25,903 bases of DNA from a virus. Position 1 is the first letter of the stretch, and every line of letters begins with the position of its first letter. A program made the position numbers and the translations under genes. A model generated the notes under the pieces. The model did not search any database. It saw only the letters and a program-made list of their open reading frames with translations, and was not told the DNA's origin. This document shows positions 8,206 through 18,553 of this stretch, piece after piece. The stretch covers positions 1 to 25,903 of IMG/VR virus record IMGVR_UViG_3300046482_000331; one strand, 5' to 3'.

Positions 8206-8419
8206 ATTAGCTCTTTCCTATTTACAACGGAATGTCGGCGTAAAGGGGGAGCTAAACGCCATACTTTATTGGCAAACGTGCCAATAGATGGGATACAATT
8301 ACCTATGTCTGGTATACTCCAGATGCGACACGGCTAGGGAACAGCTGCCCGAAAACCTGTCTCAGCAGGCTGCCGCGTCGTTTTCCACTGAGACCTCTGA
8401 CTGAGGAGAGGACAGAGAG
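8206..8419 (+). promoter_or_regulatory. Structured leader of HNH gene 2 and coat-gene upstream region
   Basis: This 214-bp gap separates the coat start (minus) from HNH gene 2 (plus). A TACAAT -10 candidate is at 8294-8299. A small hairpin TCTGG/CCAGA spans 8308-8323. Hairpin CCTG/CAGG (8356-8369) has the loop TCTCAG, which can pair with CTGAGA at 8388-8393, and GAAAAC (8351-8356) can pair with GTTTTC (8380-8385); the pairings cross like a pseudoknot. CCTCT (8394-8398) can pair with AGAGG (8407-8411), which covers the ribosome site. Confidence 0.4.
8267..8286. promoter_or_regulatory. Perfect 8-bp inverted repeat, operator-like
   Basis: TATTGGCA and TGCCAATA flank a 4-base centre (AACG). The repeat ends 7 bases before the TACAAT candidate -10 of HNH gene 2, and its left arm contains TTGGCA, usable as a -35 with a long 19-base spacer. 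It also lies about 60 bp upstream of the coat start on the other strand. No T-run follows, so a repressor site is a better reading than a terminator. Confidence 0.4.
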
Positions 8420-15758: not shown

Positions 15759-15975
15759 GGGGCACCTCGTCACGACCGAGGAGATAATCCACACTCACGC
15801 CGAGCACATCAGCAAGACGGACAAGCCGCGCCACCGTGGGCACACTCACGCCACGTTCGTACTTACTCACATCGGTTTTAAACAGCCGCGCCTGGTGCGC
15901 GACATCATCCTGACTCAATCCACGTCGTCGCCGCACGAGCAGCAAGCGCTCCTGTAACAGCGGAACACGTTCCAT
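15751..15975 (-). CDS. XRE-family transcriptional regulator (Cro/cI-type HTH)
   Basis: ATG 15975 follows AGGAGG by 5 nt and gives 74 residues; GTG 15981 is less likely since it would sit on the ribosome site. Nearly the whole protein is one HTH_XRE domain: ERLLLVRRRRGLSQDDVAHQ, then TDVSKYERGVSVPTVARLVRLADVLGVSVDYLLGR. It leads a minus-strand operon of four small genes. A strong divergent promoter pair lies upstream, so it may repress its own promoter and that of the plus-strand HNH/SWIM operon. Confidence 0.85.
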   Translation of the reverse strand: MERVPLLQERLLLVRRRRGLSQDDVAHQARLFKTDVSKYERGVSVPTVARLVRLADVLGVSVDYLLGRDEVPHV

Positions 15976-15992
15976 ACTCACCTCCTACTATG

Positions 15993-16021
15993 ATGATAGC
16001 AAGTGGTGAAAAATATTTCAA
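15993..16021 (-). promoter_or_regulatory. Sigma70-like promoter of the XRE operon
   Basis: On the minus strand, TTGAAA (16021-16016), a 17-base spacer and TATCAT (15998-15993) form a good promoter. Transcription would start near 15986, at the edge of the AGGAGG site, giving a very short leader. Confidence 0.6.
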
Positions 16022-16050
16022 ATTTCTTCTACTTTTTTTCTAAGATTGGC

Positions 16051-16079
16051 TTGCACAGGTAAGCGAGTTAGGCTACAAT
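16051..16079 (+). promoter_or_regulatory. Sigma70-like promoter of HNH gene 4 operon
   Basis: TTGCAC (16051-16056), a 17-base spacer and TACAAT (16074-16079) form a strong candidate. It lies 30 bp from the divergent XRE promoter, so one bound regulator could affect both. Confidence 0.6.
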
Positions 16080-16139
16080 ATTTCTAGAGACAGCATGGCG
16101 GTGGCCAACCCCGCAAGAGAGCATAAGGAGAAAGACAGC

Positions 16140-16733
16140 ATGTATCCAGAGGCACTCATTACCCGTTTTTGGTCCCATGTGCGACAGTGTACACATGGGA
16201 TGACGTGTGACACCTGTTGTTGGGAATGGACAGCAAGTCTGAATTCCTGGGGGTATGGAAATTTTAAAATGACGCCCCGCTACCGCGAAGGACGGGCCAT
16301 CACACAGCACGCACACCGCGTTGCGTATCGGATTCACTATGGGGCATTCGACGACGCAGCATTCGTCTGCCATCGTTGCGATAATCCTGCCTGCGTTAAT
16401 CCACAACATTTATGGCTCGGCACACCAAAAGACAATGTCAATGATGCGGTGAAGAAAGGACGACATCGATCCCAAGTCCTCAAGCTCCCGGAAGAGGAGA
16501 AGCGGGTCATTATGTACGCGAAATCACGCGGGATAAACAATAAGCATCTTGCCATGATTTTCGCAGTCACGATCCAAACGATACGTCTCATTGGGCATCA
16601 GCAAGTGTTCCACAGTCCTAAGGAAGGATTTCAGGACTATGCCGCAGAGTATGTGAAGATGGCAATTGAAAAAAGGTTAGCGGCTTTACGAGAGCAGTTA
16701 CTCGAAGTCTGCCAGCAGTTAAAAGAACAGTAA
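16140..16733 (+). CDS. HNH_3 homing-type endonuclease with C-terminal HTH
   Basis: ATG 16140 is preceded by AAGGAG and gives 197 residues; ATG 16095 lies in an identical 10-base context but lacks a ribosome site. The HNH_3 core is clear: CCWEWTASLNSWGYGNF, AHRVAYRIHYGAF, FVCHRCDNPACVNPQHLWLGTPKDN and a Lys/Arg turn. Residues 120-155 (EEKRVIMYAKSRGINNKHLAMIFAVTIQTIRLI) look like a helix-turn-helix used to bind the target. It is the first gene of a plus-strand operon. It could be a homing gene or a resident nuclease; no split host gene is seen. Confidence 0.85.
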   Translation: MYPEALITRFWSHVRQCTHGMTCDTCCWEWTASLNSWGYGNFKMTPRYREGRAITQHAHRVAYRIHYGAFDDAAFVCHRCDNPACVNPQHLWLGTPKDNVNDAVKKGRHRSQVLKLPEEEKRVIMYAKSRGINNKHLAMIFAVTIQTIRLIGHQQVFHSPKEGFQDYAAEYVKMAIEKRLAALREQLLEVCQQLKEQ

Positions 16734-16746
16734 GGAAACATAGCGC

Positions 16747-16783
16747 GGCGTACCGCCAAGCCCTAGGAAGCGAACGGTACGCC
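16747..16783. repeat. 9-bp inverted repeat before the SWIM gene
   Basis: GGCGTACCG (16747-16755) and CGGTACGCC (16775-16783) are perfect arms around a 19-base loop. It begins 13 bases after the HNH stop, and no T-run follows. It could be an mRNA hairpin or an operator. Confidence 0.45.
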
Positions 16784-16817
16784 ACACCACCCCTGAACCC
16801 CATGGAGGAGTCGAGAG

Positions 16818-17363
16818 ATGCGCACCGTAGCAGAAACCATCCAGTTTGACAATGCCCTGAGAGACCTGGCCGAGCGTGCCCGCACCCGGTACGCCGGCGA
16901 AACGGCCCGCATCGACCGCGGCCTCTGCCTGGCGCTGAACGGCCACGTCACGCTGCACCAGGACGGGACGGCCAGCGTGCAGAGCGGCCGCGACGCCGAG
17001 GTGGTGTATACGGTAAACGGGCACTGCGATTGCCCGGATGCGACGCGGGCCCCGGAAGGCCGGTGTAAACATGTATGGGCTCGCTGCTTCGTCCGCAAAG
17101 CCCACAAGCAGATCGAGGAGGACCGGGCCGCCAACACGTATTATGCCACGTACTACGCCGAGCATGGCCTGGCGTATCAGGGCATCGCGCAGTACATCCC
17201 CGGGCAGGGCTGGGTGTTTCAGTCGGACGAGGATGACTTTACGCTGACCTACGCTGACCATGCCAGCCTGGTGCTGGGCGGCCGCGTCGATATCCTCGAA
17301 GCGCAGCGCGCCGCCGATGGTTCGCTGGTTGAGAAAGTCTGCTTCGGCACAGGGAGGAGTTAA
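16818..17363 (+). CDS. SWIM zinc-finger protein
   Basis: ATG 16818 follows GGAGGAG and gives 181 residues. The SWIM signature CxC-x(n)-CxH is complete: CDCPDATRAPEGRCKHVWA at about 73-91. Before it lies a strand-rich segment (GHVTLHQDGTASVQSG...EVVYTVNG) that recurs in the SWIM gene at 24691. The C-terminal 90 residues are rich in Tyr and Asp and are of unknown family. SWIM fingers bind DNA or proteins. The sequence GGAGTCGAGAGATG around the start is identical to that of the 24691 gene. Confidence 0.82.
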   Translation: MRTVAETIQFDNALRDLAERARTRYAGETARIDRGLCLALNGHVTLHQDGTASVQSGRDAEVVYTVNGHCDCPDATRAPEGRCKHVWARCFVRKAHKQIEEDRAANTYYATYYAEHGLAYQGIAQYIPGQGWVFQSDEDDFTLTYADHASLVLGGRVDILEAQRAADGSLVEKVCFGTGRS

Positions 17364-17366
17364 ACC

Positions 17367-17462
17367 ATGATTGCCGAATACCTTGTCCTGGTCTTGGCCT
17401 TCAGCGTCGCTGAAGGCCTCCTCCTGTGTGTCGTGCACCAGTATCTGCGCCGCCGCCGCTAA
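17367..17462 (+). CDS. 31-residue single-pass membrane micro-protein
   Basis: ATG 17367 lies behind a strong GGAGGAG site that overlaps the SWIM gene stop, and TAA is at 17460-17462. The product is short: MIAEYLVLVLAFSVAEGLLL followed by CVVHQYLRRRR. It is one hydrophobic membrane segment with an Arg-rich tail that should stay in the cytoplasm. It is too short for family recognition, but the ribosome site, tight spacing and following hairpin support it. Confidence 0.6.
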   Translation: MIAEYLVLVLAFSVAEGLLLCVVHQYLRRRR

Positions 17463-17470
17463 CCCCACCC

Positions 17471-17492
17471 CGGGCGCCACGCGTGGCGCCCG
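17471..17492. repeat. GC hairpin element 1 (perfect 22-bp palindrome)
   Basis: Arms GGGCGCC (17472-17478) and GGCGCCC (17485-17491) flank ACGCGT, itself palindromic. It begins 9 bases after the stop of the membrane micro-protein. The same arms recur twice downstream. Confidence 0.7.
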
Positions 17493-17505
17493 ACAAGGAG
17501 CCCTG

Positions 17506-17664
17506 ATGCCCACACTCGATGACCACGAAGAACGCTTGCAGCAGCATGCCGAACGGATTCGGTTGCTCGAAGACTTGATGGCGCGCGCCATCGCCCTGAA
17601 CGAACTGGTGGTGCAATTGCTCCAGCGCCAGGCGGACGGCGGCCCCCAGAACGGGCAGCCCTGA
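17506..17664 (+). CDS. Micro coiled-coil protein C
   Basis: ATG 17506 has AAGGAG 6 nt upstream and gives 52 residues in one charged helix: LDDHEERLQQHAERIRLLED then LNELVVQLLQRQADGGPQNG. The start resembles micro protein A and the tail resembles B, which are both on the opposite strand near 15.5 kb. Hairpin elements lie on both sides. Function unknown. Confidence 0.65.
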   Translation: MPTLDDHEERLQQHAERIRLLEDLMARAIALNELVVQLLQRQADGGPQNGQP

Positions 17665-17674
17665 GCGCACCCCC

Positions 17675-17693
17675 GGGCGCCCACACGGCGCCC
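17675..17693. repeat. GC hairpin element 2
   Basis: GGGCGCC (17675-17681) and GGCGCCC (17687-17693) are perfect arms around CACAC. It begins 10 bases after the stop of micro protein C and is followed by the AAAGGAG site of the next gene. Confidence 0.7.
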
Positions 17694-17711
17694 CAGAAAG
17701 GAGATGCGACG

Positions 17712-17948
17712 ATGTTGACCCCACACGAAGAGACGCAGTGGTACGACTATGTCGAGACCATGGCTCAGCGAGGCCTGACGGTGGACGTAAGCGAGCTGGT
17801 GGACGTGCTGCGCCATCTGGAGGATGCCCCCGCAGGGCACGTGCTGGCCGCCGCCCTGGGAGTCGGCACCATGCCCCTGGAGGATCTGGCCAGGCGCCTG
17901 ACCTTACAGACGCGGACCATCATCGAGACCGGCCGCGTCCCACGGTAA
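17712..17948 (+). CDS. Small helical protein, unknown function
   Basis: ATG 17712 follows AAAGGAGATG by about 6 nt and gives 78 residues. The protein is helical and acidic in the first half (HEETQWYDYVETMAQRGL, VSELVDVLRHLEDAPAG). The end, MPLEDLARRLTLQTRTIIETGR, resembles a helix pair. No motif is recognised. It is the last gene of the micro-gene operon and is also followed by a GC hairpin. Confidence 0.65.
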   Translation: MLTPHEETQWYDYVETMAQRGLTVDVSELVDVLRHLEDAPAGHVLAAALGVGTMPLEDLARRLTLQTRTIIETGRVPR

Positions 17949-17957
17949 CCCCCCACC

Positions 17958-17976
17958 GGGCGCCCCCGTGGCGCCC
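17958..17976. repeat. GC hairpin element 3
   Basis: GGGCGCC (17958-17964) and GGCGCCC (17970-17976) flank CCCGT. It begins 9 bases after the stop at 17948. No T-run follows, so it is not a standard terminator. Confidence 0.7.
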
Positions 17977-17989
17977 ATCCCGGCACACC

Positions 17990-18050
17990 ATGGAAAGCTA
18001 AAGTTTCCATGTATATCCTCGTAACTTCTTGATGTACCTGCTCTTAAGAG
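17990..18050. repeat. Inverted repeat and palindrome in convergent gap
   Basis: ATGGAAA/TTTCCAT (17990-18010) is a 7-bp inverted repeat. CTCTTAAGAG (18041-18050) is a perfect palindrome. Both lie between the end of the micro-gene operon and the end of the XRE repressor gene on the other strand. Neither has a T-run; one could assist termination or be a protein site. Confidence 0.35.
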
Positions 18051-18094
18051 ATCCGTATTTTCCCTGGTTGCGCCTGGGTTGCGGATTGACGTCC

Positions 18095-18553
18095 TCAAGC
18101 CGTCTCCGTGCCGTTGCGCTCCGTGTCCCCGTGTCCCCCGGTCTCCGTGTCTGCCTCTGCCTGTCCCTGGCGCCGGAGCTCCTGCCAGAGATCGCTGACC
18201 CGGGTCAACTGTTCCTGCGAGAGGTTGCCGAGGATGACCATCCCCCCGTTGGCCACCCAGACGCGCACTTCGCCCGCCGCGTGGTAGTGCACGACGCGGC
18301 CACCGCCGAGGCCGCCGAGCAGTTCATCAATGCTGGTACGCAGGGCGGCCGCCAGGTCCTGCGCGTGCTCGAGGGACGGCCACACCTTGCCACCCTCAAT
18401 CTGCGAGATGTTTTCCTGGGTCACGCCGATGCGCTGCGCCAGCTCGCCCTGGGAAAGCCCCAGACGTTCCCGGTGCAGGCGCACCATGCGCCCAAAAAGC
18501 TCCTGCCTGACCCGACTCTGCGCCCGTCCACGCTTCTGTTTTGCCGCCGGCAT
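18095..18553 (-). CDS. XRE-family repressor, cI-like candidate
   Basis: ATG 18553 gives 152 residues. Residues 18-80 are an HTH_XRE domain (RLHRERLGLSQGELAQR, GVTQENISQIEGGKVWPSLEHAQDLAAALRTSIDELL, described by its helices). The rest is a short beta-like segment (VVHYHAAGEVRVWVANGG) and an acidic tail, without the Ser/Lys autocleavage site of LexA-type repressors. A 247-bp AT-rich region with divergent promoters separates it from an XRE gene on the other strand, the arrangement of a lambda-like switch. The role is inference from that layout. Confidence 0.8.
   Translation of the reverse strand: MPAAKQKRGRAQSRVRQELFGRMVRLHRERLGLSQGELAQRIGVTQENISQIEGGKVWPSLEHAQDLAAALRTSIDELLGGLGGGRVVHYHAAGEVRVWVANGGMVILGNLSQEQLTRVSDLWQELRRQGQAEADTETGGHGDTERNGTETA

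Follow-up and report, generated by a model that had tools for sequence, protein, structure and literature searches.

Conserved GC-rich hairpins behind the genes of a small phage operon as candidate RNA gene-end elements

Why should three successive small genes of a phage operon each be followed, shortly after the stop codon, by the same GC-rich hairpin? The question was raised by a 25,903-nt stretch of viral DNA, referred to here as the window (IMG/VR record IMGVR_UViG_3300046482_000331, positions 1 to 25,903), which carries a P22-like portal, a terminase large subunit, a Prim-Pol primase and an HNH endonuclease. No direct DNA similarity of the window to sequenced phages was found, and its SWIM protein had no match among isolated phages in the collection searched. 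The nearest terminases in bacterial genomes shared at best 51% (Rhodospirillaceae) and 50% (Anaerolineae MAG) identity. Genes were called with a purpose-made codon-score caller; a few calls in the window are doubtful, such as the + strand ORFs at 5.1-6.1 kb and 8.4 kb, and the operon genes are unaffected by these.

The operon is encoded on the + strand in the order HNH gene, 181-aa SWIM-type zinc-finger gene, and ORFs of 31, 52 and 78 codons, and it faces a convergent HTH regulator. Its features are as follows.

16052, + strand: -35-like box TGCACA of the operon promoter (consensus match only)
16074-16079, + strand: putative -10 box TACAAT of the operon promoter (consensus match only)
16747-16783, + strand: leader hairpin before the SWIM gene, GGCGTACCG, 19-nt loop, CGGTACGCC, followed by the spacer CACACCACCCC
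16818-17363, + strand: SWIM-type zinc-finger gene (CxCx..CxH), 181 aa, from homologues and Pfam
17367-17462, + strand: 31-aa ORF, probable small membrane protein judging by its sequence, MIAEYLVLVLAFSVAEGLLLCVVHQYLRRRR
17463-17470, + strand: C/A-rich spacer after the 31-aa ORF
17471-17492, + strand: gene-end hairpin 1, 9-bp stem (extended), 4-nt loop, dG -18.1 kcal/mol
17495-17500, + strand: Shine-Dalgarno AAGGAG of the 52-aa ORF, 2 nt past hairpin 1
17506-17664, + strand: 52-aa ORF, probable coiled coil (predicted fold)
17675-17693, + strand: gene-end hairpin 2, 7-bp stem, 5-nt loop, dG -14.5 kcal/mol
17697-17703, + strand: Shine-Dalgarno AAAGGAG of the 78-aa ORF
17712-17948, + strand: 78-aa ORF, last gene of the operon, without a family match
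17958-17976, + strand: gene-end hairpin 3, 7-bp stem, 5-nt loop, dG -14.2 kcal/mol
17989-18011, no strand assigned: second, AT-rich dyad CATGGAAA-GCTAAAG-TTTCCATG at the convergent operon end, from sequence
18095-18487, - strand: HTH (Cro/cI-type) regulator, convergent

The Pfam SWIM model was matched by one of five SWIM homologues, the window protein itself falling below Pfam significance. In relatives, TTGACA/TATATT-like boxes occur at the place matching the putative operon promoter of the window, likewise as consensus matches only. Inside the 31-aa ORF there is a 10-bp inverted repeat (GGCCTTCAGC/GCTGAAGGCC, 3-nt loop, 17396-17418).

The pattern GGGCGCC-loop-GGCGCCC was searched in the whole window and matched only three times, at 17472-17491, 17675-17693 and 17958-17976, compared with a mean of 0.01 and a largest count of 1 in 100 shuffles. 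The hairpins start 9, 10 and 9 nt past the stops of the 31-, 52- and 78-aa ORFs, respectively, as the initial annotation had described. Its remark that a T-run is missing also held at all three copies: no T occurs in the 8 nt past hairpins 1 and 2, and the sequence past hairpin 3 is ATCCCGGC. The C-rich lead-in that it pointed out was found as well, and in 19 family elements the spacer before the hairpin consists of 70% C, 23% A and 3% G, the corresponding figures being 33% C and 28% G for all family gene ends whose gap is at least 36 nt. The two gaps between the small genes (43 and 47 nt) are filled by spacer, hairpin, Shine-Dalgarno and start codon, so there is no room in them for a promoter. 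Hairpin 3 is the operon end, and no downstream gene follows it on the + strand. There is no hairpin directly 3' of the SWIM gene in the window because the 31-aa ORF begins 3 nt later; the two genes look as if they form a tightly coupled pair with one common end, hairpin 1. The near-identical twin of the window (L239, 3300045965_000170) has a contig that stops in the last SWIM codons, just before the three hairpins, possibly owing to an assembly break at the hairpin repeats.

Relatives were collected from viral contigs, 31 by terminase and 20 by SWIM protein; the two sets overlap, and some of the family loci share a source metagenome and fall short of full independence. Nine exact GGGCGCC hairpins occur in the 306 kb of family DNA (window included), all nine past gene ends and none intragenic. 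Eight of them start 8-16 nt past the gene end, a zone that makes up 1.3% of positions, and the ninth (in L013) is the second of a tandem pair, 33 nt past the gene end. Hairpins of any sequence between a stop and a Shine-Dalgarno-preceded start numbered 14 in the family vs 2.2 expected by circular shift (200 shifts, largest 9). A hairpin of dG ≤ -10 starting 4-16 nt past the stop was present in 12 of 36 same-strand family gaps of 36-80 nt and, by the same criterion, in 2 of 219 overlaps or gaps of at most 15 nt. Among distant terminase relatives, such a hairpin was found in 8 of 102 gaps, most of these being unlike the family ones in look.

The SWIM gene gave a view of orthologous positions chosen by protein and not by hairpin. 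A hairpin lies directly past its stop in ten distinct loci (L240/L241, L242, L243, L244, L248, L249/L250, L251/L252, L255, L256 and L257). Other dyads take its place in L246 and L254/L258, the hairpin is absent past the SWIM gene in two loci (L245 and L247), and the loci of L253 and L239 run off contig ends. The family hairpin also follows genes of 138-198 codons, so the idea that it is limited to micro-genes did not hold. The hairpin is usually followed by a Shine-Dalgarno, which starts 0-11 nt past it in 14 copies; the operon-end copies in the window, L024, L028 and L257 have none, which links the hairpin to the 3' end of the gene before it. The comparison shows that a strong GC hairpin, as predicted from sequence, is kept behind the genes of this operon in related phages, mostly 8-16 nt past the stop. 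Absence of the hairpin in relatives or random placement, either of which the initial annotation had named as refuting its proposal, did not occur.

The stems differ among copies, and it is therefore the pairing rather than the letters that is kept. They include GGGCGCC, GGGGCC, GGGGGCC, GGGGGC, GGGGGAGG, GGGGAGC, and GGGGGTC pairing with GGCCCCC (one G-U). Because MAFFT misaligned the short stems, pairs were counted on hand-registered stems: with seven different stems, the inner pairs are kept in 126 of 126 cases in 21 elements, a figure biased by the selection of these elements as hairpins, and whole-arm shuffles keep 83% of inner pairs on average and at most 93%. The orthologous SWIM-end copies, found by protein, show the stem changes too. 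Within single operons, L017 has three differing stems and L009 has two. The Rfam covariance models gave no match up to E=1 for window positions 15900-18100, and neither the gene-end hairpin nor the leader hairpin was matched at the early operons of eight relatives.

A second conserved hairpin is located at the other end of the operon. Leader hairpins were found in L017, L022, L024, L028, L029, L031, L254 and L257, sharing the same order past the promoter-like boxes: (A/T)ACAGCATG..., a 7-11 bp stem, CACACCAACCC and a Shine-Dalgarno. The loop in relatives is roughly 13-20 nt, often ACCCCGCGAAGAGA. Outer pairs of the leader, on hand-registered stems, are kept in 87 of 91 cases (shuffles: mean 67.5, maximum 79); the predicted leader stem covaries among relatives. 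A scan for the leader shape gave one match per phage at the SWIM operon; the few additional matches, in L006, L033 and L035, look unrelated. In the window, the 5' half of the leader, AGACAGCATGGCGGTGGCCAACCCCGCAAGAGA (16085-16140), adjoins the HNH endonuclease gene, and the complete leader hairpin appears again after the gene (16733-16785); the arrangement resembles the insertion of a homing-endonuclease gene into the leader.

What might the gene-end hairpins do? The explanation that we tentatively prefer, at somewhat less than an even chance, is that they are RNA gene-end elements acting as 3' decay barriers within one phage operon. The hairpin would form in the transcript as soon as the ribosome finishing the upstream gene has left the spacer, and the folded hairpin would then block 3'-to-5' exonucleases. 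In this way the 3' end of each upstream gene segment would be shielded, and each segment of a single polycistronic RNA would have a lifetime of its own; the second conserved hairpin would sit at the 5' end of that RNA. Two features expected of an intercistronic mRNA-stability element (puf/REP-like) are seen here, namely a strong hairpin between co-directional genes past the upstream stop, and pairing that is conserved while the sequence is not (the pair count is selection-biased; the SWIM loci were found by protein). A precedent is the intercistronic hairpin of the puf operon, described as giving segmental mRNA stability (Klug 1987, as cited in PMC6238624). Of the proposal in the initial annotation that the hairpin is an mRNA processing or stability element for each gene, the premises were borne out, with the place past the stop and the pairing kept while the sequence changes in relatives; the function itself is presumed.

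Termination of transcription is a close rival, nearly as likely as the decay barrier and a serious possibility in its own right. The hairpins could be intrinsic terminators of the U-less, I-shaped kind described for phiC31, either leaky or overcome by antitermination, giving stepwise attenuation along the operon and a stop at its end. As GC-rich hairpins past phage gene ends without a U-tract, they match the phiC31 early-region terminators as these are described for Ingham 1995 in PMC5335608 and PMC8355165, the phiC31 hairpins being reported to terminate transcription; a terminating effect here would be by analogy. A hairpin copy also closes the operon in several phages. The canonical Rho-independent form is matched in its GC-rich hairpin but not in its U-tract, none of which lies directly past the stems in the window; a terminator scan that needs a T-run had no match at the hairpins, and among 14 copies the tail is clearly T-rich only in L018 and L255. 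Whether a U-tract is needed is itself disputed: U-less hairpins are reported to lower reporter expression in mycobacteria, but polymerase work disputes this, and a U-tract need is reported for the mycobacterial polymerase (Czyz 2014, as cited in PMC5335608). Terminators are repressed by a ribosome at a nearby stop codon, and according to PMC4824070 a terminator requires 10-15 nt of free RNA if it is to fold behind that ribosome; the spacers of about 8-14 nt are near this range but at its edge, so the spacing does not decide the question. Most copies are internal to the operon without promoter space after them, and some operon ends have an extra, different dyad. Since there is no U-tract and no promoter room in the 38-48 nt gaps, the hairpin would terminate at most part of the transcripts, and such partial termination may add to the effect. 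Two points favour the decay barrier: an internal copy with no promoter behind it cannot act as a full terminator, and the presence of a hairpin at the 5' end as well is in keeping with a transcript that is protected.

The remaining explanations are less likely. In a broader scheme, which seems unlikely, the hairpins would be the RNA punctuation of one early or regulatory transcript, with a covarying leader hairpin, a hairpin closing most translation units and nearly G-free linkers, possibly read by a phage factor (e.g. the SWIM protein of the operon) that would control how strongly each of the exchangeable small genes is expressed. That the hairpin insulates translation, keeping the next Shine-Dalgarno open or blocking ribosome read-over, is slightly less probable still; the 0-11 nt distance to the Shine-Dalgarno in 14 copies is suggestive, but copies without a following gene exist, and the computed Shine-Dalgarno openness is independent of the hairpin (0.34 present, 0.31 deleted, 0.37 scrambled), so that the computed accessibility gives no support to an opening role. 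The mobile or modular cassette suggested in the initial annotation, in which ORF and hairpin travel as a unit, is now very improbable. Gene content between the hairpins does vary from phage to phage, with most downstream small proteins unrelated, and the GGGCGCC stem is common to several phages, but the hairpin keeps its operon position beside the conserved SWIM gene, which is not a micro-gene, in the ten loci while its stem changes. In L013 and L028, a homologue of the hairpin-bearing 58-codon gene of L017 has a different location, where it overlaps the next gene and lacks a hairpin. Neither hallmark of integron-like cassettes was found: among the loci compared, this homologous ORF at another site does not bring the hairpin along, and no attC core GTTRRRY is visible by eye at the window hairpins. 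The exchanged genes between the hairpins, the 138-198-codon carriers and the small-gene homologue elsewhere indicate that the hairpin belongs to the operon and not to a mobile unit. The least likely explanation is that the hairpins are DNA palindromes to which a protein binds, be it the phage HTH regulator or some other. The stem sequence is the same in all three window copies and the HTH gene adjoins them, but a single sequence-specific DNA-binding protein would not read alike the three different stems of the L017 operon or the two of L009, and placement relative to stop codons is a register of RNA and translation.

The array can be compared with known systems. The phiC31 early region, as Ingham, Hunter and Smith (1995) are cited for it, is likewise a phage operon with GC-rich hairpins lacking a 3' poly-U. 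In contrast, the records studied here are unrelated and podovirus-like, their hairpins occupy gaps of 38-48 nt and come immediately ahead of the next Shine-Dalgarno, and termination is a candidate function only. The mycobacterial I-shaped hairpin TtsaD of the alr-groEL1 operon (PMC5335608) is also U-less and downstream of a gene inside an operon, but it is a single host-operon element, whereas the hairpin here is repeated past successive genes with a C/A spacer. In Rhodobacter puf, a hairpin between co-transcribed genes has likewise been proposed to give segments different lifetimes; the stability effect was shown there and is presumed here, where an operon holds several copies. The layout of stop, hairpin, Shine-Dalgarno and start, with GGGCGCC-loop-GGCGCCC, also occurs between the major capsid gene and the next in Pseudomonas/Burkholderia-type phages, as a single copy in a structural operon, the phages and genes being unrelated to those here. 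A scan of viral contigs for the GGGCGCC stem followed by AGGAG gave, among the matches listed, many with the stop-hairpin-Shine-Dalgarno layout in unrelated phages, so the single-hairpin layout is common. The distinctive part is the repetition of hairpins along a regulatory operon together with the leader hairpin: gene-end U-less hairpins are known (phiC31, puf), and the clade-wide array with a leader hairpin is new.

The predicted hairpin structure and its conservation are solid, and the working mechanism is what we infer from them. Conservation alone shows U-less gene-end hairpins to be selected features in this group of uncultured phages. The orthologous copies allow one to ask whether such hairpins serve transcription termination or mRNA protection, which is disputed for U-less hairpins. 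The hairpin is also a practical cue for spotting real genes of 30-80 codons in phage genomes.

Two further observations concern other parts of these genomes. The stretch CTGGTTGCGCCTGGGTTGC is conserved in two phages, at about 18064-18083 in the window and in the convergent region of L009, separating the end of the operon from the 3' end of the HTH gene. A match to int-alpA RNA (RF02996, Rfam) was found in the window at 8327-8393 (+ strand, 36.9 bits), on the strand opposite to the neighbouring late genes, and a second family member has one as well (L031, 20678-20740, - strand, 41.2 bits).
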